Source of the DNA: Pseudomonas sp. P5_109
GTDB lineage: Bacteria > Pseudomonadota > Gammaproteobacteria > Pseudomonadales > Pseudomonadaceae
Assembly (NCBI RefSeq): GCF_034009455.1
Contig: NZ_CP125380.1
Coordinates: 2,741,501 to 2,805,500, forward strand
Length of the DNA stretch: 64,000 nt
Reading direction: 5' to 3'
Under the pieces are notes generated by a model. The model was given only the letters and a program-made list of their open reading frames with translations, did no database searches and was not told the origin of the DNA. Made by a program: the position numbers and the translations under genes. Shown piece after piece: positions 26,090 to 58,731 of the stretch (positions within the stretch are counted from its first letter, which is position 1; every line of letters starts with the position of its first letter).

Positions 26090-26599
26090 ATGATGAATGC
26101 CATGCAGATGCAAATGCCGATGAACGCCAACATGCCGATGATGTCGATGATGGGCATGCCGATGATGATGGCGACCATGTCCTGCGACATGATGGACGAC
26201 GGCATGATGTGCAAGATGATGCCGGCCGCTGGCATGGACATGGCCATGTTCAGGAACAGCGCTGAAATGATGCAGTTGATGATGAACTGCGGCATGCCGA
26301 TGATGATGCACTGCGGCAACATGAGCATGATGTGCATGTCCCCGGCGAGCATGGCCATGCCGATGATGAACATGATGATGTCGATGCCAGTGATGGGCAT
26401 GCCGATGCCGTCGATGAAGTGTGTTATGGAATGCACGCTCATGGCGGACTGCATGATGTGCAAAATCATGCCGATGGCCGGCATGAACATGGACATGATG
26501 AAAAACTGCTGTGCCCTGATGATGAAAATGATGAACGACTGCAGCATGCCGATGATGATGAGCTGCAACGGCATGCCGCTGATGTGCTGCACTTGCTGA
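26090..26599 (+). CDS. Extremely Met- and Cys-rich protein with an internal duplication
   Basis: ATG 26090 has AGGGA about nine bases upstream. The 169-residue product has about 69 Met (roughly 41%) and 16 Cys. Residues from about 18-83 and 97-167 are two copies of one module, seen in CMMCKIMPMAGMNMDM against MMCKMMPAAGMDMAMF, then MPMMMSCNGMPLMC against MPMMMHCGNMSMMC. There is no signal peptide. Thioether and thiol density suggests binding of soft metals such as Cu(I), or an oxidant sink, but this is inference. The dense ATG codons also make the opposite strand an open, His-rich frame, which I judge to be a shadow. Confidence 0.7.
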   Translation: MMNAMQMQMPMNANMPMMSMMGMPMMMATMSCDMMDDGMMCKMMPAAGMDMAMFRNSAEMMQLMMNCGMPMMMHCGNMSMMCMSPASMAMPMMNMMMSMPVMGMPMPSMKCVMECTLMADCMMCKIMPMAGMNMDMMKNCCALMMKMMNDCSMPMMMSCNGMPLMCCTC

Positions 26600-26743: not shown

Positions 26744-27430
26744 TTAGTCCAGGCGTTCGGGGTAGGTCACTACAAGATAGGCCACGGCCTCACTGTCGGC
26801 GGGGTTGCGATAGCGGTGGGGCTGGTCGGCGTAAAACAGGATCGAGTCCCCCGTGGATAGCAGGTAGCGTTCATCGTTGACGCTGATTTCCAGGACACCC
26901 TGCGCCACCACCAGGTTTTCCTGGACACCTGGGCCATGGCCCTGCGACTGGTCCTCTCCCAACGCGCTCAGGCGCAGCTCGTAGAATTCCGATTGGCGCG
27001 CCACGTCAAAGGGGAACAGGGCGCGGCTGACAAAAGCGCCGTTGGCACTGACCAGGCGTTTGCTCTGGCTCGCCGACAACAGGGCCACACCTTCGAAGGC
27101 CCGATGCTCCAGAAACGCCGCCACCGATACCTTCAAGCCTTTGGCGATTTTGCACAGCACCTTGATGGACGGCACACTGCGCCCCGATTCGATTTGCGCC
27201 AGCATGGCGCGGCTCACGCCGCACTGTCGGGCCAGGGCATCAAGGGACAGATGGCGCTTGCTGCGCAGACGCAGCAGGTTTTGTCCGACCCGCTCGCAGA
27301 TCGGGTCCTCTTCCGGGGCATCCGGATTGTTCAGGTCCAGCACAGGCTCGTCCGCGCTTATCAAAAAGCGCGAGGGTTCGTGCGCGTTCACGCCTGACGT
27401 GTCTCGGTAGACCGAGACGCCTGAATCCAC
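26744..27430 (-). CDS. XRE-family regulator with C-terminal cupin domain
   Basis: The 228-residue protein has a helix-turn-helix domain at about residues 45-102 (LDALARQCGVSRAMLAQIES) and a cupin sensor at about 150-225 (NLVVAQGVLEISVNDERYLL, FYADQPHRYRNP). XRE-cupin proteins repress or activate small metabolic operons in response to a ligand bound in the cupin. The start is a GTG at 27428-27430, inside the 3' end of a small upstream frame. The perfect inverted repeat at 27401-27418 lies in its first codons and could be an autoregulatory operator. The target genes are not evident from the neighbourhood. Confidence 0.88.
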   Translation of the reverse strand: MDSGVSVYRDTSGVNAHEPSRFLISADEPVLDLNNPDAPEEDPICERVGQNLLRLRSKRHLSLDALARQCGVSRAMLAQIESGRSVPSIKVLCKIAKGLKVSVAAFLEHRAFEGVALLSASQSKRLVSANGAFVSRALFPFDVARQSEFYELRLSALGEDQSQGHGPGVQENLVVAQGVLEISVNDERYLLSTGDSILFYADQPHRYRNPADSEAVAYLVVTYPERLD

Positions 27431-27549
27431 TGCAATGCCTGTAATCCGGCGTTACGTGCGTACATCTCCCACATGGCCCGTGCCCGTTGCTGAGCTTGTT
27501 TGCGTTTGCGGTAGCTGGCGAAATCGATGAGGTTGTCAGTCGGATTCAT
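27388..27549 (-). CDS. Small basic protein overlapping the XRE-cupin start
   Basis: A 53-codon frame runs from ATG 27549 (MNPTDNLIDFASYRKRKQAQ, then QRARAMWEMYARNAGLQ) to a TGA at 27388-27390, overlapping the next gene by 43 bp. The product is rich in Arg, Gln and Ala, with a run of basic residues. Codon use is host-like, but the ribosome site is weak. The overlap suggests co-translation with the XRE-cupin regulator. Function unknown. Confidence 0.5.
   Translation of the reverse strand: MNPTDNLIDFASYRKRKQAQQRARAMWEMYARNAGLQALQWIQASRSTETRQA
27401..27418. promoter_or_regulatory. Perfect inverted repeat, possible operator
   Basis: GTCTCGGT-AG-ACCGAGAC is a perfect palindrome with eight-base arms and a two-base centre. 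It lies in the overlap of the small frame and the first codons of the XRE-cupin gene. It could be an operator for that regulator or an RNA hairpin coupling the two frames. Confidence 0.4.
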
Positions 27550-27812
27550 GGGGCACTTCACTGTGGTGATGAATGACGGGATGACTGGAGAGTACGCTTC
27601 TATTTTTATAACGATAAATACTTAATTTTCATTTATTAATTCTTTTTGGTTCTTATTGGTGGGCGATTTTCAGGCGCTTATGAATGCCCTTTATATTTCC
27701 AAATGGTCTAAACATGTAATTATATATTCCTTTTGGTGTTGGCTGATGCGGTGCATCTTGAGGGCCTGCCCATCCATGCGGATGGTCTCGACGCCAGACA
27801 GGAAGCCTTATC

Positions 27813-28028
27813 ATGACCATCAAAGCGATCAACGTCCGTAACCAGTTCAAGGGCGTCATCAAGGAAATATTCGAAGGCGAAGTGGTCTCCGAAATCGACG
27901 TGCAAACGGCCTCCGGGATCGTCACTTCCGTGATTACCACGCGTTCGGTGCGCAGCCTGGAGTTGAAGGTGGGCAGCGAGGTGATTGCCTTCGTCAAGTC
28001 GACGGAAGTCTCCATCGCCAAGCTTTAA
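27813..28028 (+). CDS. Mop-type molybdate/molybdopterin-binding protein (TOBE domain)
   Basis: The 71-residue protein is a single Mop/TOBE domain (NQFKGVIKEIFEGEVVSEID, SVITTRSVRSLELKVGSEVI), the usual length for stand-alone molybdate-binding Mop proteins. These form hexamers that store or buffer molybdate in the cytoplasm. The sequence AGGAAG precedes the ATG at about nine bases. The gene stands alone behind an AT-rich upstream region (27550-27812). Its Rho-independent terminator has been split by an insertion sequence. Confidence 0.9.
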   Translation: MTIKAINVRNQFKGVIKEIFEGEVVSEIDVQTASGIVTSVITTRSVRSLELKVGSEVIAFVKSTEVSIAKL

Positions 28029-28082
28029 AAGCCTGAATCATTGATAGTTGACGGGTGATCTGCGGGTTTAAAAAAGTCATGA

Positions 28083-28101
28083 AAAAACCCGGCTGATCAG
28101 G
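28083..28101. terminator. Left half of a bidirectional terminator split by an IS
   Basis: Left arm AAAAACCCGGC (28083-28093) and loop TGATCAG are followed by the IS at 28102. The matching arm GCCGGGTTTTT lies at 29539-29549 after the IS. Joined, they form an 11-bp perfect stem with T-runs on both strands, serving the convergent mop and repeat-protein genes. The 10-bp target duplication GCTGATCAGG (28092-28101 and 29530-29539) covers the loop. Confidence 0.9.
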
Positions 28102-28152
28102 CTAATGCCGATCAGTTAAGCCTTCTCGCTTGACCTTTGGCCGCAAGAAATC

Positions 28153-28187
28153 AAAATCCGATGCCTGTACTGGCATCGGATTTTTTT
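28153..28187 (+). terminator. IS-borne Rho-independent terminator at the left end (copy 1)
   Basis: AAAATCCGATGCC pairs with GGCATCGGATTTT around the loop TGTACT and is followed by a T-run. It lies 51 bp inside the IS, pointing in the direction of the transposase gene and immediately before ATG 28188. It would stop transcripts entering from the mop gene. Confidence 0.85.
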
Positions 28188-29519
28188 ATGCGTCTCGCTC
28201 GGGCACTGGAACTGACCCACAACATCGCCTCCACTCCCAACGCCATCGATGGATTGGATTCCTTACTCGACCCTTCTTTGGTCGAACAGGCACTTGAGCA
28301 GGCCGGTGTAGCGACCCTGCGCAAGCGGCGTTTGCCGCTGGAAATGATGCTTTGGTGCGTGATCTCCATGTCGTTCTTTCGACGTATGTCGGCCTGGGAT
28401 GTGGTCAGCCGCATGAACATCATGCTGCCGGGACAGCGTCCGCTGGTAGCGCCCAGCGCCGTAGTCCAGGCCCGTCAGCGATTAGGCAGCGAAGCTGTAC
28501 GACAGGTCTTCGATCTGACTCAGAAAAGTTGGCATGAAGCGGCCGCTCATCCAACTTGGGCCGGTTTGCGCTTACTGGGCGTCGACGGTGTCGTCTGGCG
28601 AACACCCGATACCCCCGAAAACCGTGCGCGTTACGACTCGGCCAGTAACCAGCATGGCGACACTGGTTTCCCTCAGGTGCGCATGGTCTGCCAAATGGAG
28701 TTGACCAGCCACTTGTTGATCGGCAGTGCGTTTGACGGCTACCGCAGCAACGAAATGAAGCTGGCAGAACAACTGATCGAAACCACGCCCGATCACTCGT
28801 TGACGCTGTTCGATCGCGGCTTTTATTCCTTGGGTTTGCTGCACCAGTGGCAGCAGGCCGGCTCCGAGCGCCATTGGCTGATGCCATTGCGCAAAGGTGC
28901 GCAGTACGAAGTGGTTCAGCGTCTGGGTCGCCAGGATGCGGTGGTTTCGTTAAGCACTTCGCCGCAGGCTCGCAAGCAATGGCCGGGGCTGCCGGAGCGT
29001 CTGACCGCGCGACTCCTGAGCAAAACCGTCAAAGGCAAGGTATGTCAGATCCTGACCTCAATGGCCGACCCGCTGCGCTTCCCGCCCGACGAAATCGTTG
29101 ATCTGTACAGTCAGCGATGGGAGATCGAATTAGGCTTTCGGGAAATGAAACAGACGCTGCTCAACAGCAGCTATACGTTGCGCAGCAAAACGCCCGAGAT
29201 GATCGAGCAGGAATTATGGGGAGTGTTGTTGGGCTACAACTTGTTGCGCTATCAAATGGTGGAAATGAGTCGCCACTGCCCCGGCATTTACCCATGTGAA
29301 ATGAGTTTTACCGCCTGCACCTGGGCGATCCTCGGGTTTATCAACAGCGTCTCGGCCGACCGCTCCGGGAACATCCCCAAGTACCTGGCCGAGCTGCATG
29401 CCTCAGCCCCGCAGTATGTACTGCCTCATCGACGGGCGGAGCGCATTTACCCCCGGGCCATCAGGCTCAAATCCCCGAAGTATCCGATCAAAAATAAAAA
29501 TGCCAGTCAGCTTAACTGA
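28188..29519 (+). CDS. IS4-family DDE transposase (copy 1)
   Basis: From ATG 28188 ([15 protein letters not shown]) the product has 443 residues. In-frame TTG 28137 or ATG 28161 would add residues but read through the terminator hairpin. The IS4-family YREK signature is intact: Y-x2-R-x3-E-x6-K in [15 protein letters not shown]. Further DDE-region blocks are [16 protein letters not shown] and [14 protein letters not shown]. No ribosome site is obvious, which suits a gene kept at low expression. The TGA stop lies inside the right terminal hairpin (29499-29527). A weak TTGACC (28130-28135) with a poor -10 could start transcripts within the hairpin. Confidence 0.94.
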
Positions 29520-29576
29520 CTGGCATTAGGCTGATCAGGCCGGGTTTTTGTTGGGCGTTGTGGCGACGCGGTTTGT

Positions 29577-29939
29577 TTATGCGACGCGATTCTGCAGCAG
29601 CTTGTCAGAACCACCTTCAGCGACGCGGTTCTGCAGCAGTTTGTCGGAACCGCCTTCAGCGACGCGATTCTGCAGCAGTTTGTCAGAACCACCTTCAGCG
29701 ACGCGGTTCTGCAGCAGTTTGTCAGAGCCACCTTCGGCAACACGGTTCTGCATCAGCTTGTCGGAGCCATCCGCAGCGACGCGGTTTTCGATCAGGCGGT
29801 CGGAACCACCCTCGGCCACACGGCTTTCAATCAGACGATCCGAGCCGCCTTCAGCGACCACAGGTTGAGCAGAGGTAGCGGCAAAAGCGCTAACTGCGAA
29901 AACCGAGAAAGCGATGCTGAGGAGGGTCTGGCGTTTCAT
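29577..29939 (-). CDS. Exported protein with tandem 13-residue repeats
   Basis: The 120-residue product has a signal peptide (LLSIAFSVFAVSAFA, cleavage near residue 21). Then come seven tandem 13-residue units of the form VAEGGSDKLLQNR, the first ones diverged (DRLIESR, DRLIENR). The last units are almost identical at DNA level, so copy number is probably unstable. Similar Pseudomonas proteins exist under vague names, but I know no proven role. A mature periplasmic or secreted repeat protein is the safe description. The gene converges on mop, and the shared terminator is split by IS copy 1. Confidence 0.82.
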   Translation of the reverse strand: MKRQTLLSIAFSVFAVSAFAATSAQPVVAEGGSDRLIESRVAEGGSDRLIENRVAADGSDKLMQNRVAEGGSDKLLQNRVAEGGSDKLLQNRVAEGGSDKLLQNRVAEGGSDKLLQNRVA

Positions 29940-30064
29940 GATCGTGTGCTCCGGGGTACTTATGGGTTGGTATGGAGCAGATGTTACGCCGTGGATTTTT
30001 TAAGAGAACTTCATTGAGTCAATGGTGACTATCGATGCAGTCAATGGATGATTTGCTGACCATT

Positions 30065-30152
30065 GTGGGAGCGGGCTTGCTCGCGAAGGCGTCGGCATTG
30101 CCAGCAATGTTGTCGACTGACACAACGCCTTCGCGAGTAAGCCCGCTCCCAC
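30065..30152. repeat. REPIN, GTGGGAGCGGG family
   Basis: Inverted REP pair (GTGGGAGCGGGCTTGCTCGC and its partner ending GCCCGCTCCCAC) about 88 bp long, located just downstream of the response-regulator gene. Confidence 0.9.
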
Positions 30153-30184
30153 AGGTTTTTGCAGTGAACACAGGTTTCGAGGTG

Positions 30185-30817
30185 TCAGCGGGAGATGAGG
30201 CCGTGATCGAGGGCGTATTTGACCAGCGCGGCCGGTTTGTCGATGTTGAGTTTGCGCCGGATGCTCAGGCGGTGTGTCTCCACCGTGCGCACGCTGATGT
30301 CCAGTTCCCGGGCCATTTCCTTGTTGTTCAAGCCTTGCGCCATCTTCGACAAGACCTGGCTTTCCCTCGGGGTCAGTTCGTTGTCGGTGTTCTTGTCGGC
30401 GATCAGGCGCTGGGCGATTTCGGCGCTGTAGAAGGTTCCGCCGCTGGTGATGGCTTCGATGGCGGCGATGATTTCCCGCGACGGGGCGTTCTTCAGCACG
30501 TAGCCGCTGGCGCCGGAGCGCACTGATTCACTGACGTACTCGTAATTGTCGTACATGCTCAGCACCAGCACCTTGAGCGACGGGTACTGGCTGCGCAGCA
30601 CGCGGGTCAGTTCCAGGCCGTTCATGTCTGGCAGGCTGATGTCGACCAGCAGCAGGTCGGGCTGGCAGCGTCCGACCATTTCGATGGCCTCGGCGCCGTT
30701 TTCCGCTTCGCCGACCATTTCCAGGGGCGACATCACGGCCAGCAGCGCCTTGATGCCGTCGCGGACCAGGGAGTGATCGTCGACCAGGGCGACGCGGATC
30801 GGGGAGGGCAGGTTCAT
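30185..30817 (-). CDS. NarL/LuxR-family response regulator
   Basis: The 210-residue protein has a receiver domain with Asp59 as phosphoacceptor (LLVDISLPDMNGLEL). It ends in a LuxR-type HTH (ELTPRESQVLSKMAQGLNNK, REL-DISVRTVETHRLSIRRKL). It forms a two-component pair with the kinase gene 34 bp upstream. The pair is transcribed divergently from cstA-ybdD. A 32-bp perfect palindrome in the shared intergenic region is a plausible binding site, so control of cstA by this system is inferred. Confidence 0.93.
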   Translation of the reverse strand: MNLPSPIRVALVDDHSLVRDGIKALLAVMSPLEMVGEAENGAEAIEMVGRCQPDLLLVDISLPDMNGLELTRVLRSQYPSLKVLVLSMYDNYEYVSESVRSGASGYVLKNAPSREIIAAIEAITSGGTFYSAEIAQRLIADKNTDNELTPRESQVLSKMAQGLNNKEMARELDISVRTVETHRLSIRRKLNIDKPAALVKYALDHGLISR

Positions 30818-30851
30818 CGCAGCTATTCACTCTTGTAGTTTTTGGGCCGGC

Positions 30852-32216
30852 TCAGCGTTTTGCGCCAGGTTTCATCGGCAGCAGCACGTCCAGCTCACTT
30901 CTGCCCGGCATCGAGATCAAATCGAAGCGCCCGCCAAAATGTTCGACGCGTTCGCGGATGTTACGCAAGCCAATGCCGGCTTGACGACGTTCGACCTGGG
31001 CGACGTTGAAACCGATGCCGTCATCGACCAGGGTCAGCCGCACGGACTCGTCGCAGCCGCGCAGTGTAATGGACACGTTTTTCGCCTGCGCGTGGCGTTC
31101 GATGTTGGTCAGGCCTTCCTGGACGATGCGGAACAGCGAAACCGCCGCGCCGTCGACCAGCAGGCAGTCGAATTCATTTTCGTCATAGGTCACGGTCAGC
31201 CCGCTGCGCTGCTCGAATTCGGCGGCCAGTTGGCCGATGGCCGCCGGCAGGCCGAGGGTGTCGAGCAAGGAGGAACGCAGGTCGTGGGAGAGGCTGCGGA
31301 CTTCACCGATGGCATCGCCGAGGCGCTCGGTGGCGTCTCTGAGGGCGTTCAAACCCTTGTCGTCGGCTTGTCCGCGTTCCAGCAGATGGCTGGCCAGTTC
31401 GAACTGGAACTTGATCGAGACCAGCACCTGGCTGATGCCGTCGTGCAGTTCGCGGGATACCCGTGATCGTTCTTCCTCCTGCAGGCTGACGATGCGCTGG
31501 GTCAGGCGCTGCAGTTTCTTGTCCGCCAGGCGATGTTCGCTGACGTTGAGGGTCATGCCGGTGGCGAATACGAACAGCACCGCGACGAGGGCGACCACGG
31601 CAATCGCCATCATGGTCTTGCGGATGCCCATGGCCACTTCGGCGCGGGCCTGCTGGGTGGCGCGCTCGACGTCTTCGAGGTAGATGCCGGTGCCGAGCAT
31701 CCAGCCCCAGCGATCGAGCATCACCACGTAGGCGAGCTTGTCGGTCACCTGGCCGGAGGAGGGCTTGTTCCAGGCGTAGCGCTGGAAGCCTTCTCCCGAT
31801 TGCGCGCTTTGCAGCAGCGCCTGAATCACCGGCAGGCCGTGGGGGTCTTTCATGTCCCAGAGGTATTGGCCCACCAGCTCCGACTGCCGCGCGTGCATCA
31901 GGCTGCGGCCTTCGTGGTCGTAGACGAAGAAGTAGCCGTTGATGCCGAAGCTGAGCTTGCGCAGTTCTTCCAGCACCTGTTGCTGGGCGCGGGCATCGCC
32001 GTGGCCGTCGTCGTACAGGGGGGCGATCAGGCTCTGGGCCATTTCCACGTAGTTTTTCAGCTCCGCGCGCTTGCTCGCCAGAATGCTGTCTTCGATCAGT
32101 TGCGCCTGTTGATCGCCCAATTGGCGGTTGAGGGAAATCACCAGCGCGCAAATGACGGCAATGGCCAGCACCAGCGGCAGAATCCCGAGGGCGACGATCT
32201 TGTGTTTGAGCTGCAT
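30852..32216 (-). CDS. Membrane sensor histidine kinase with Cache domain (HisKA_3 type)
   Basis: The 454-residue kinase has a first transmembrane helix at about residues 9-29 and a periplasmic Cache-type sensor (FGINGYFFVYDHEGRSLMHA, YVVMLDRWGWMLGTGIYLED). A second helix lies near 202-222. A HisKA_3 dimerisation domain follows with the phospho-His at 258 (SRELHDGISQ), then an ATPase domain (VDDGIGFN, GIGLRNIRERVEHFGG). Cache sensors of this type often read small carboxylates, which would suit the neighbouring CstA transporter, but the ligand is not visible here. It is the first gene of the kinase-regulator operon. Confidence 0.93.
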   Translation of the reverse strand: MQLKHKIVALGILPLVLAIAVICALVISLNRQLGDQQAQLIEDSILASKRAELKNYVEMAQSLIAPLYDDGHGDARAQQQVLEELRKLSFGINGYFFVYDHEGRSLMHARQSELVGQYLWDMKDPHGLPVIQALLQSAQSGEGFQRYAWNKPSSGQVTDKLAYVVMLDRWGWMLGTGIYLEDVERATQQARAEVAMGIRKTMMAIAVVALVAVLFVFATGMTLNVSEHRLADKKLQRLTQRIVSLQEEERSRVSRELHDGISQVLVSIKFQFELASHLLERGQADDKGLNALRDATERLGDAIGEVRSLSHDLRSSLLDTLGLPAAIGQLAAEFEQRSGLTVTYDENEFDCLLVDGAAVSLFRIVQEGLTNIERHAQAKNVSITLRGCDESVRLTLVDDGIGFNVAQVERRQAGIGLRNIRERVEHFGGRFDLISMPGRSELDVLLPMKPGAKR

Positions 32217-32315
32217 GTTGATTCCTGCCCGCGCGAAGGCTCGGGATCATATGCCAAAGAGGCAAAGCCTTGTAGGACCGAATGACCATTGGCCGGGGTG
32301 AAATGCAAAACCAAT

Positions 32316-32403
32316 GTGGGAGCGGGCTTGCTCGCGAAAGCGCTGGGTCAGCTGACATCAATATTGACTGATCCGCCGCCTTCGCGAGCAAGCCCGCTCC
32401 CAC
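32316..32403. repeat. REPIN, GTGGGAGCGGG family
   Basis: Inverted pair of GTGGGAGCGGGCTTGCTCGC-type REPs about 88 bp long, in the divergent region upstream of the sensor kinase. Confidence 0.9.
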
Positions 32404-32411
32404 AGGGGATA

Positions 32412-32443
32412 GTGGCGTCTACGTAGTACTACGTAGACGCCAC
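32412..32443. promoter_or_regulatory. 32-bp perfect palindrome, candidate operator
   Basis: The half site GTGGCGTCTACGTAGT is followed directly by its exact reverse complement, with no spacer. ACGTACGTAGTA follows at once, so TACGTAGT-like words are repeated. It lies about 120 bp upstream of cstA. A dimeric NarL-type regulator binding site is a reasonable reading. Confidence 0.55.
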
Positions 32444-32563
32444 GTACGTAGTAACGCGGATTTATTTGTGGACGGCATGCGTGGATATTGGGCCAGCTCC
32501 GCATCGCGGACACAATTATAAAAATTACCGCCGCAGTCACTGGCTGTCGGCAGGAGACACGCT

Positions 32564-34621
32564 ATGCCCCGTCTGGCTAAACACCTCGCCTGGTTTGCCG
32601 TGGCTGTCCTGGGAGCGATTGCGCTGAGTGTCGTGGCCCTGCGCCGCGGCGAAGCGATCAACGCCCTGTGGATCGTAGTCGCAGCCGTCGCCATCTACCT
32701 TGTTGCCTACCGCTACTACAGCCTGTTCATCGCCAATAAAGTGATGCAGCTCGATCCCAATCGGGCCACGCCGGCTGTGCTCAACAACGATGGTCTGGAC
32801 TATGTGCCGACCAACAAACACGTACTCTTCGGTCACCACTTCGCGGCCATTGCCGGCGCGGGTCCGCTGGTCGGCCCGGTGCTGGCGGCGCAGATGGGCT
32901 ACCTGCCCGGCACGCTGTGGCTGATCGCCGGCGTGGTGCTGGCCGGTGCAGTGCAGGACTTCATGGTCCTGTTCATGTCCACCCGCCGCAACGGCCGGTC
33001 CCTGGGCGACATGGTTCGCGAGGAAATGGGCCGCATCCCCGGCACCATCGCGCTGTTCGGTTGCTTCCTGATCATGATCATCATCCTCGCGGTGTTGGCG
33101 CTGATCGTGGTCAAGGCCCTGGCGGAGAGCCCGTGGGGCATGTTCACGGTGATGGCGACCGTCCCGATCGCGATGTTCATGGGCGTGTACATGCGCTACA
33201 TCCGCCCGGGCCGCATCGGTGAGATCTCGGTGGTCGGCGTGCTGTTGCTGCTGGGTTCGATCTGGCTCGGCGGGCAGATTGCCGCGGACCCGGTGTGGGC
33301 CAAGGCCTTTACCTTTACCGGTCTGCAGATCACCTGGATGCTGATTGGCTACGGTTTTGTCGCGGCGGTGTTGCCGGTGTGGCTGATCCTGGCACCCCGT
33401 GACTACCTCTCCACCTTCCTGAAGATCGGCACCATCGTTGCCCTGGCCATCGGCATCCTGGTGACCATGCCCGAGCTGAGAATGCCGGCCCTGACCCAGT
33501 TCATCGACGGCACCGGCCCGGTATGGAAGGGCGGTCTGTTCCCGTTCCTGTTCATTACCATCGCCTGTGGCGCGGTCTCCGGTTTCCATGCGCTGATCGC
33601 CTCCGGCACCACGCCGAAGCTGCTCGCCAGTGAAGGGCATGCCCGTTACATCGGTTATGGCGGCATGTTGATGGAATCCTTCGTGGCGATCATGGCCATG
33701 GTTGCAGCCTCGGTGATCGATCCGGGCGTGTACTTCGCCATGAACAGCCCGGCTGCCGTGGTTGGTGCCGATGCGGTGACCGTTGCACAAACCGTCAGCA
33801 GCTGGGGCTTTGCCATCACGCCGGAAGCCCTGCAAGCGGTCGCCCATGACATCGGTGAAACCACCATCCTGGCCCGTGCCGGTGGTGCGCCGACCCTGGC
33901 GGTGGGGATCGCGCAGATCCTGCACCACGTGTTGCCGGGCGAGAACACCATGGCGTTCTGGTACCACTTCGCGATCCTGTTCGAAGCGCTGTTCATCCTG
34001 ACTGCCGTGGATGCCGGTACCCGTGCCGGTCGCTTCATGCTCCAGGACTTGCTCGGCTCGTTCGTACCGGCCCTGCGCCGCACGGAATCCTGGACCGCCA
34101 ACCTGATCGCTACTGCCGGTTGCGTGGCGATGTGGGGTTATCTGCTGTACCAGGGCGTGATCGACCCACTGGGCGGCATCAACACCTTGTGGCCGCTGTT
34201 CGGCATCTCCAACCAGATGCTGGCCGGTATCGCGCTGATGCTCGGCACCGTGGTGCTGATCAAGATGAAGCGCCAGCGTTATGTGTGGGTGACCTTGCTG
34301 CCAGCCGTATGGCTGCTGATCTGCACCACCACCGCCGGTTTCATCAAGCTGTTCGATGCCAACCCGGCGATCGGCTTCCTCGCCTTGGCCAAAAAGTACA
34401 GCGATGCCCTGGCCAACGGTCAGGTGCTGGCCCCGGCCAAGAGCATCGACCAGATGCAGCACGTGATCTTCAACGCCTACACCAACGCGACGCTGACCGC
34501 GCTGTTCCTGTTCGTGGTGTTCAGCATCCTGTTCTTCGCGCTCAAGGTCGGTATCTCCGCCTGGGGCAGCAAAGAGCGTACGGATAAAGAAGCGCCATTC
34601 CAGGCTGTGCCGAATGCGTAA
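32564..34621 (+). CDS. cstA: CstA-family carbon-starvation transporter
   Basis: The 685-residue protein is a full-length, strongly hydrophobic CstA with the typical blocks [34 protein letters not shown] and [21 protein letters not shown] stands seven bases before the ATG. Family members import peptides or pyruvate under carbon limitation in enterobacteria, so the substrate here is not certain. It is followed at 14 bp by ybdD. Divergent placement from a Cache-sensor two-component system suggests substrate-responsive control. Confidence 0.96.
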
Positions 34622-34635
34622 GCGAGGAGGGCAGC

Positions 34636-34833
34636 ATGTTCAATGACTTGAGTCGCCTGGGTAAATACCTTGGTCAGGCTGCGCGCCTGATGGTCGGCAT
34701 GCCCGACTACGACAACTACGTCGAGCATATGCAGAACAAGCACCCGGACAAACCGGTGATGGACTACGAGGCGTTCTTCCGCGAGCGCCAGGAGGCCCGT
34801 TACGGCAGTAAGGCCGGACCGAAGTGCTGTTGA
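34636..34833 (+). CDS. ybdD: YbdD-family small protein, CstA partner
   Basis: A 65-residue protein with the YbdD/DUF466 core ([20 protein letters not shown]) that is nearly always found directly downstream of cstA and is thought to assist the transporter. GAGGAGGG lies just before the ATG. The end is Cys-Cys. The operon terminator downstream is split by IS copy 2. Confidence 0.93.
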
Positions 34834-34840
34834 GCGAGTA

Positions 34841-34859
34841 AAAAAACCGGCCCCAAAGG
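34841..34859. terminator. Left half of the cstA-ybdD bidirectional terminator split by an IS
   Basis: Left arm AAAAAACCGGCC (34841-34852) and loop CCAAA are followed by the IS at 34860. The right arm GGCCGGTTTTTT lies at 36295-36306. Joined, they form a 12-bp perfect stem usable on both strands, between ybdD and the convergent gene at 36324. The 9-bp duplication CCCCAAAGG (34851-34859 and 36288-36296) is centred on the loop. Confidence 0.9.
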
Positions 34860-34910
34860 CTAATGCCGATCAGTTAAGCCTTCTCGCTTGACCTTTGGCC
34901 GCAAGAAATC

Positions 34911-34945
34911 AAAATCCGATGCCTGTACTGGCATCGGATTTTTTT
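34911..34945 (+). terminator. IS-borne Rho-independent terminator at the left end (copy 2)
   Basis: Identical in sequence to the hairpin at 28153-28187 (stem AAAATCCGATGCC, loop TGTACT, T-run), although the following transposase gene has diverged. It can end transcripts coming from ybdD. Confidence 0.85.
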
Positions 34946-36277
34946 ATGCGTCTCGCTCGGGCACTGGAACTGACCCACAACATCGCCTCCACTCCCAATT
35001 CAATCGAGGGACTGGATTCTTTACTCGATCCTTCTTTGGTCGAGCGGGCCCTTGAACAGGCCGGTGTGGCGACCCTGCGCAAGCGGCGTTTGCCGCTGGA
35101 AATGATGCTCTGGTGCGTGATTTCCATGGCGTTCTTTCGACGCATGTCGGCATGGGATGTGGTCAGCCGCATGAACATCATGCTGCCGGGCCAGCGTCCG
35201 TTGGTGGCACCCAGCGCTGTGGTTCAAGCCCGTCAGCGGTTGGGCTGCGAGGCTGTCCGACAGGTCTTCCATCTGACTCAGAAAAGTTGGCATGAGGCTG
35301 TGGATCACCCAACTTGGGCAGGCTTGCGTTTGCTGGGCGTCGACGGTGTGGTCTGGCGAACACCGGATACCCCGGAAAATCGGGCGCGCTACGACTCGGC
35401 CAGCAATCAGCATGGCGACACTGGCTTTCCTCAGGTGCGCATGGTCTGCCAAATGGAATTGACCAGCCACATGCTGATCGGCAGCGCGTTTGATGGCTAT
35501 CGCAGCAACGAAATGAAGCTGGCCGAACAACTGATCGACACCACGCCCGATCACTCGTTGACCCTGTTCGATCGCGGTTTCTACTCCTTGGGATTGCTGC
35601 ACCAATGGCAGCAAGCAGGCACCGAACGGCATTGGCTGATGCCACTGAAAAAAGGCACGCAGTACGAAGTGGTTCAGCGTTTGGGCCGTCAGGATGCGGT
35701 TGTCTTGTTAAGCACTTCGCCGCAGGCCCGCAAACAATGGCCGGGGCTGCCCGAGCGCCTGACTGCGCGACTCCTGAGCAAAACCGTCAAGGGCAAGGTG
35801 TGTCAGATCCTGACGTCGATGACCGACCCGCTGCGCTTCCCGTCTGACGAAATAGTCGACCTGTACAGCCAGCGATGGGAGATCGAATTGGGCTTTCGGG
35901 AGATGAAACAGACGCTGCTCAACAGCAGCTATACGCTGCGTAGCAAGACACCCGAGATGATCGAGCAGGAACTGTGGGGTGTGTTGCTGGGCTACAACTT
36001 GTTGCGCTATCAGATGGTGGAAATGAGTCGTCACTGTCCAGGTATTTACCCGTGTGAAATGAGCTTTAGCGCGTGTACCTGGGCGATTTTAGGGTTTATC
36101 AATAGTGTCTCGGCCGACCGTTCCGGGAACATCCCCAAGTACCTGGCCGAGCTTCATGCCTCAGCCCCGCACTATGTCCTGCCTCATCGGCGAGAGGAGC
36201 GTATTTATCCTCGCGCCATCCGGCTCAAATCACCGAAGTATCCGATCAGAAATAAAAATGCCAGTCAGCTTAACTGA
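34946..36277 (+). CDS. IS4-family DDE transposase (copy 2)
   Basis: A 443-residue transposase from ATG 34946, intact, with the YREK signature ([15 protein letters not shown]) and the same domain order as copy 1. Differences from copy 1 are mostly conservative (for example VARPLEQ-type changes early on, and LKKGTQYE for LRKGAQYE). Both reading frames are open, so selection appears to have kept them functional. As in copy 1, the stop lies in the right-end hairpin. Confidence 0.94.
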
Positions 36278-36323
36278 CTGGCATTAGCCCCAAAGGCCGG
36301 TTTTTTATTGGTCTGTCCGCAGG

Positions 36324-36482
36324 TCATGGAGCCTTGTCACCCTTGCGTCCGGGGGGCTGACTGTCCGGCTTGGCGATCTTGAGCGCCCGGTCGGCGACCT
36401 TGGCGTTATGTACCAGGCGACAGAGCACGGCGACGACGATGATCGCCAGCACTACCCAGATGACAATGGCTTTGACGTACAT
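36324..36482 (-). CDS. Small single-span membrane protein
   Basis: ATG 36482 has GAGAGG seven bases upstream. The 52-residue product starts MYVKAIVIWVVLAIIVVAVL, one transmembrane helix, followed by a basic cytoplasmic tail. Function unknown. It converges on ybdD, and the shared terminator is interrupted by IS copy 2. Confidence 0.7.
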   Translation of the reverse strand: MYVKAIVIWVVLAIIVVAVLCRLVHNAKVADRALKIAKPDSQPPGRKGDKAP

Positions 36483-39127
<2,645 letters not shown>

Positions 39128-58585: not shown

Positions 58586-58609
58586 CGACGGGTTAAACGT
58601 AGATCCCCT

Positions 58610-58696
58610 GTGGGAGCGGGCTTGCTCGCGAAAGCGGCGTATCAGATACATAAATATTGACTGACATACCGCTTTCGCGAGCAAGCCCGCTCCCAC
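58610..58696. repeat. REPIN, GTGGGAGCGGG family, inside an operon
   Basis: An 87-bp inverted REP pair between the binding-protein and permease genes. Placement here can stabilise or end the upstream mRNA and so raise binding protein over permease. Confidence 0.9.
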
Positions 58697-58731
58697 ATGG
58701 GAAGGTGCAGATCCGCCAACTGGAGACTGAA

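Follow-up and report, generated by a model that had tools for sequence, protein, structure and literature searches.

The window analysed here, a stretch of 64,000 nt from the forward strand of Pseudomonas sp. P5_109 (GCF_034009455.1; NZ_CP125380.1, positions 2,741,501-2,805,500), contains two 1426-bp insertion sequences (ISs) of the IS4 subgroup, copy 1 at 28103-29528 and copy 2 at 34861-36286, both on the plus strand and each located at the dyad of a bidirectional transcription terminator. An initial annotation of this DNA had recognized two IS4-family elements, each splitting such a terminator, and both are present as it described; its remark that they differ at many bases is made more precise by the 90% identity of the two copies. 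The element tips read TAATGCC...GGCATTA, a placement that agrees with the published end signature of the IS4 subgroup, -AATR--------WTW (Table 1 of PMC2266710), to which the end sequence TAATGCCGATCAGTTAAGC conforms. With these tips, the target duplications measure 12 bp for copy 1 (GGCTGATCAGGC; 28091-28102 and 29529-29540) and 11 bp for copy 2 (GCCCCAAAGGC; 34850-34860 and 36287-36297), rather than the 10 and 9 bp first assigned to them. Both split sites share a layout of A tract, GC-rich stem, loop, stem and T tract, with a left terminator half that ends in the duplication (28083-28102 for copy 1 and 34841-34860 for copy 2) and a right half that begins with it (29529-29550 and 36287-36306, respectively). 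The duplications are approximately centred on the hairpin dyad, where the best hairpin is offset by no more than 1 bp.

Each element encodes a transposase of 443 amino acids bearing the IS4 N-terminal and DDE domains, read on the plus strand from 28188-29519 in copy 1, where the coding sequence starts at the ATG following a T tract, and from 34946-36277 in copy 2. Both proteins match PF13006 and PF01609 (E of 9e-27 or better) and score 299 and 298 bits against NF033592, for which the cut-off is 115. Across 23 relatives, the residues Tyr307, Arg310, Glu314 and Lys321 of the Y(2)R(3)E(6)K motif are invariant, as are Asp133 and Asp209, which we take to be catalytic. A profile search of solved structures with the transposase returned none up to E=1. 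The protein shares 52% identity with the transposase of IS4 from Escherichia coli, the type element of the subgroup. The likeness to this subgroup, as characterized in the parts of PMC2266710 drawn on here, extends over the transposase domains, the YREK and DDE residues, the end signature, the element length (1426 bp, within a range of 1400-1650 bp) and the duplications of 12 and 11 bp (range 10-13 bp).

Target sites in a wider sample

The sample assembled around these two copies comprises 215 loci taken from the P5_109 genome itself, from an end-pattern search that matched 151 of 398 Pseudomonas genomes, and from a protein scan that reached Vibrio, Colwellia, Alteromonas, Idiomarina, Thaumasiovibrio and others. 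From the end-pattern matches listed, at most ten per genome, 100 regions were picked by hand, places near contig ends being left out, and the best 80 of 99 relatives were kept from the protein scan. Among these loci, 99 different insertions have a duplication of 8 bp or more, namely 56 transposase-carrying copies of at least 800 bp (50 found by the protein scan, 5 in the P5_109 genome and 1 at a pattern-fetched locus) and 43 short relatives resembling miniature inverted-repeat transposable elements (MITEs). The 56 include several per genome in places, with nine from Thaumasiovibrio, and two of them (L060 and L105) have nearly the same flanks. Loci with one end only were dropped, and 46 end pairs without a duplication were excluded from scoring; among the 40 of these viewed by eye, several display terminator halves (L065, L094, L115, L188) and others do not (L126, L140, L149). 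A larger set of 72 sites adds 16 distinct left flanks from E. coli and plasmid records, although L261 and L267 within it are probably one event. A class-wide sample of 185 genomes, which outside the P5_109 genome held only distant relatives (29% identity for the best-scoring match), was left unused. Empty target sites were inferred from the flanks, and the hairpin thresholds, set by the analyst, were identical for the sites and for background positions in the same flanks.

Within this sample, the centre of a bidirectional terminator hairpin is at most 1 bp away for 52 of the 56 transposase-carrying insertions, compared to 0.98% of the background positions, and the offset is 0 at 34 of the 52 centred sites. 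The 6.96-Mb genome of P5_109 carries five full copies, and the flank pairs of all five are halves of bidirectional terminators. Terminator hairpins had been proposed as the target in the initial annotation, with most copies lying outside them named as the outcome that would speak against the idea; the sample points the other way. Nine of the 72 sites in the larger set fail a set of strong criteria for terminators, three of which (L085, L255, L274) bear long-loop or off-centre hairpins when viewed by eye. Among the used terminators that pass, 62 of 63 are bidirectional, compared to 15 of 34 neighbouring terminators (p=4e-10), while one-way terminators make up 1 of 63 used and 19 of 34 neighbouring ones by the same criteria. 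The orientation of the element relative to the longer tract is unbiased over the 72 sites (28 versus 31, with 13 ties). On these comparisons, the location of IS4-subgroup elements at bidirectional terminator dyads holds well beyond the window.

The type element itself behaves similarly. In 18 E. coli records, read by the analyst as ten insertion events, IS4 is located at bidirectional terminators in seven events by score and eight by eye. The seven scored events are found at pdeA/nupC, tdk/adhE (one in each orientation), typA/yihL, bamD/raiA, glcA/gsp, where the second tract is weak, and rraA/zapB; the eighth, at ogrK, is an off-centre terminator accepted by eye only. The tdk/adhE terminator was hit in both orientations in different strains (L261 and L271) and is a recurrent target of IS4. 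Five further relatives came from a plasmid collection, of which four pass the strong criteria and one, from Vibrio (L274), fails.

Outer positions 1-4 and inner positions 1-4 of the stems are complementary beyond what partner shuffling yields (p 0.0005 to 0.001), while the bases themselves vary. An A occupies position -6 in all 56 sites, and a T occupies position +6 in 53. When the A/T arms are held fixed, at least five of six stem pairs form at 32 of 56 sites versus 22 of 1654 background positions, and with strict arms required on both sides, stem pairing is found at 25 of 37 sites versus 5 of 50 background positions. Since this excess of pairing persists with the arms fixed, both the tracts and the pairing matter. 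The view that the targets have only structure in common was borne out insofar as the stems covary without a common primary sequence; it has to be amended for the A and T tracts, which stand at a near-constant distance from the cuts.

That distance bears on the length of the duplication, which ranges from 9 to 13 bp over the 56 insertions and reaches 14 bp at one E. coli site. Where the arms contain AAAA and TTTT (46 of 56 sites), the cut falls 2-4 bases from the tract at 43 left and 44 right ends, and the tract-to-cut distance is independent of duplication length (rho -0.12, 46 sites) and varies less than with shuffled lengths (p=0.003, 51 sites). The parity of the duplication equals that of the loop in 39 of 52 cases, where 25.2 are expected by shuffling within groups (p=5e-5), and the match is also found in a mixed group of 24 (p=0.005). 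As shown by this comparison of sequences, the duplication length follows the target hairpin.

Many Pseudomonas loci (L014-L043, L124-L223) bear short MITE-like elements of approximately 80-220 bp with the ends of this IS. In 7 of the 43 short relatives scored, the duplications are palindromes resembling the repetitive extragenic palindrome (REP), of the GGGCTTGCCC type.

Both copies in the window lie between convergent genes. Copy 1 is flanked by a TOBE-domain gene on the left (27813-28028, +) and a PtrA-like gene on the right (29577-29939, -), and copy 2 by a Sel_put/YbdD-like gene (34636-34833, +) and a 52-codon open reading frame (36324-36482, -). Convergence had been noted for both sites, which is accurate for the window; it does not extend to a rule. 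Convergent neighbours are no requirement, because CheR and flagellar-rod genes of the same orientation flank the P5_109 copy at 5438249, and codirectional neighbours are likewise found at four of the eight E. coli events at terminators or hairpins (ogrK, typA, bamD and glcA). In PMC9208149, IS4-family insertions are reported to be under-represented between divergent genes, which fits with terminator targeting.

Other features of the window are more peripheral. The PtrA-like protein beside copy 1 (29577-29939) contains seven near-identical repeats of the type SDKLLQNRVA, and an open frame at 26090-26599 encodes a strikingly Met- and Cys-rich protein without a Pfam match at E 0.01, for which a role in metal binding is a guess. 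Paired inverted REP-like palindromes of the tgtgggagcgggcttgctcgcga type, presumably REPIN-like, are located at 30064-30153, 32315-32404 and 58609-58697, the first two of which flank two-component genes at 30185-32216. A perfect 32-bp palindrome at 32412-32443, perhaps an operator, lies upstream of a cstA-like gene. An Rfam search over 27000-37500 found no family.

Terminator-like ends and a promoter-like pair

The element bears hairpins of its own at both ends. In copy 1, a leader hairpin and T tract (28153-28187, +) form an inward-reading terminator-like structure directly before the transposase ATG, and the right terminal repeat forms a second one, also reading inward (29499-29527, -); the equivalent structures of copy 2 are found at 34911-34945 (+) and 36257-36285 (-). 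The leader hairpin of copy 1 has a predicted energy of -21 kcal/mol (z -6.9), and the right-end hairpin one of -20.4. Fold energies fall below -8 in 43 of 47 leaders and in 45 of 47 right ends, pairs 5-10 of the leader hairpin change by compensation over 40 distinct leaders, and in 37 of these 40 the T tract runs straight into the ATG. These comparisons show that hairpin structures at both ends are conserved, and their form suggests that they would function as terminators. Less favourable was a first hairpin scan, which returned the right hairpin in 78 of 78 elements and the left in 48 of 78, with none for E. coli IS4; the leader counts given here come from later scans because another method shows the left hairpin in E. 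coli IS4.

In copy 1, a promoter-like pair, TTGACC-N16-CAAAAT, is located at 28130-28157 (+); its second hexamer reaches 2 nt into the leader hairpin's ATCCG, so that the pair overlaps the 5' arm. The promoter-like pair of copy 2 lies at 34888-34915 (+). Of 41 distinct leaders, many of them related, 38 have the TTGAnn-N16 pair as their best match in a scan in which two places of the second hexamer had to be A and T. In 36 leaders, the end of this hexamer overlaps exactly two bases of the hairpin ATCCG, and the hairpin motif differs in two. In AT-rich leaders, the promoter-like scores are barely above those of shuffled sequence, which counts against the assignment, and it is the constant spacing that argues for it.

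This arrangement suggests how the element might manage its own expression. Transcripts entering from outside would fold into the complete left terminator and stop immediately ahead of the transposase ATG, whereas internal transcripts would start inside the left hairpin, lack most of its 5' arm, and escape. IS10 and IS50 are protected from outside transcription by a leader structure that forms only in outside transcripts, and they are the nearest precedent. The present elements are like them in having a leader structure formed by outside transcripts only, and unlike them in that the leader is terminator-like, with its T tract directly before the ATG, and in that a second such structure is present at the other end.

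Target recognition, its alternatives and its precedents

The reading favoured here is that the transposase of IS4-subgroup elements selects the symmetric dyad of a bidirectional terminator as DNA, with near-neutral insertion and self-limited transposase expression as the presumed outcome, and this account is probably correct. The compared sequences show cuts placed approximately symmetrically on either side of the hairpin centre, as a rule two to four bases within the A tract on one side and the T tract on the other. Under this reading, each half of a transposase dimer would bind an A-tract/stem half-site, and the pairing of the stem would be recognized as well, as bent, supercoil-strained or extruded DNA. 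Insertion splits the host terminator, and the element supplies an inward-reading terminator-like hairpin at each end. A more far-reaching version holds that what the transposase recognizes is a hairpin extruded from, or strained within, duplex DNA, that the geometry of the target sets the cuts, so that duplication length is measured on the target and not fixed by the enzyme, and that a bidirectional host terminator is traded for two inward ones, one overlapping a promoter, as a general strategy of silent spread across the gammaproteobacteria. This version is tentative, its chances being put at somewhat short of even.

Several observations weigh against selection of the dyad. Four of the 56 sites (L047, L057, L068, L101) have no qualifying hairpin, and the short MITE-like relatives are looser in their choice, with 19 of 43 at bidirectional terminators, 8 at unidirectional ones, 9 at a hairpin only and 7 at none. 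The IS4 site near nanX of E. coli K-12, common to 7 of the 18 records, is not a terminator, nor is the site of an E. coli copy that interrupts bcsG, and the proposal that insertions spare genes therefore survives as a tendency rather than a rule. The A at position -6 is nevertheless found at 71 of the 72 sites. As for the duplications, the parity match falls short of significance among the 16 Pseudomonas sites taken by themselves (p=0.31) and is marginal among the 9 from Thaumasiovibrio (p=0.048), and even loops accompany 11 of 29 odd duplications.

Given this near-constant A at -6, the tracts may outweigh the hairpin, and the A lends substance to a linear form of recognition, in which the transposase would read nothing but suitably spaced A-tract and T-tract half-sites, through a minor-groove or bending signal, and terminators merely happen to carry such tract pairs. 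The near-invariance of this A and the A-rich left arm retained by sites without a qualifying hairpin are what such a mechanism predicts; the excess of stem pairing with the arms fixed, the covariation of the stems and the agreement of duplication parity with loop parity are not, and together they make it unlikely. An explanation by arms only is weakened by the same pairing excess, although the A at -6 and the A-rich left arms leave room for a tract-only reading. The initial annotation had also left the choice between a DNA cruciform and a structure linked to transcription, and it is recognition of a DNA dyad that fits better. A paused or terminating RNA polymerase, an R-loop or a nascent RNA hairpin could direct the element to its targets, which are terminators, after all, and in E. 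coli lie just downstream of genes. Use of one-way terminators and oriented insertions would be expected of such a mechanism, whereas the used terminators are nearly all symmetric, orientation relative to the longer tract is unbiased, and REP-like palindromes serve as duplications in some of the short relatives. Targeting by transcription is thus judged decidedly improbable, and DNA dyad recognition is favoured over it on account of the symmetry of the used terminators and the unbiased orientation. It might finally be supposed that insertion is random and that purifying selection leaves only copies in harmless terminators, where, the DNA being non-coding, insertion spares genes. Other intergenic DNA should be as harmless, and neither centring within 1 bp, near-constant tract-to-cut distances nor avoidance of one-way terminators would be expected, which renders this account scarcely credible. 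Explanations by selection only or by random intergenic insertion were rejected since the centring is too precise.

Targeting of hairpins or terminators is already known from other mobile elements. In the portion of PMC4923244 consulted, IS1272/TnSha1 of the IS1182 family is described as targeting hairpins, many of them terminators, in both orientations and with no primary-sequence consensus. The resemblance is in target choice only, as IS1272 belongs to another family and removes a portion of the stem-loop without duplicating its target, whereas duplications are present here. ISRm22 of the IS4Sa subgroup, an IS4-family relative, is reported in the relevant part of PMC1525189 to insert at the symmetry axis of a palindrome; unlike this element and the REP-targeting ISs, which use a repeated REP target, the transposase-carrying copies studied here use diverse terminators with A/T tracts. 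Group IIC introns are likewise mobile elements with terminators as targets, according to the section of PMC3522654 cited here, but they retrohome downstream of the terminator by means of intron RNA and a reverse transcriptase, in contrast to the action of a DDE transposase at the dyad. For the IS4 subgroup of the IS4 family itself, striking specificity for the arms has been reported in PMC2266710, the main text of which does not contain the word 'terminator', and, unlike in that account as far as it is drawn on here, duplication length is tied to the hairpin in the present sample. A literature search, beyond whose reach many journals lie, returned no statement that IS4 inserts in terminators. 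New here are a DDE element that makes duplications at such targets, the generality of its preference for bidirectional terminators, a duplication length that depends on the target, and terminator-like ends belonging to the element itself.

For the subgroup that gives the IS4 family its name, bidirectional terminator dyads offer a simple and testable target rule, one from which the landing sites of new copies can be predicted and which suggests a tool for intergenic insertion of DNA. Duplication length, commonly ascribed to the enzyme, becomes linked to the structure of the target. A terminator as the target, a terminator at each end and an insulated promoter suggest a coherent design of low harm, and this combination of terminator targeting with stop signals of its own may explain how the element multiplies with little harm to its host.

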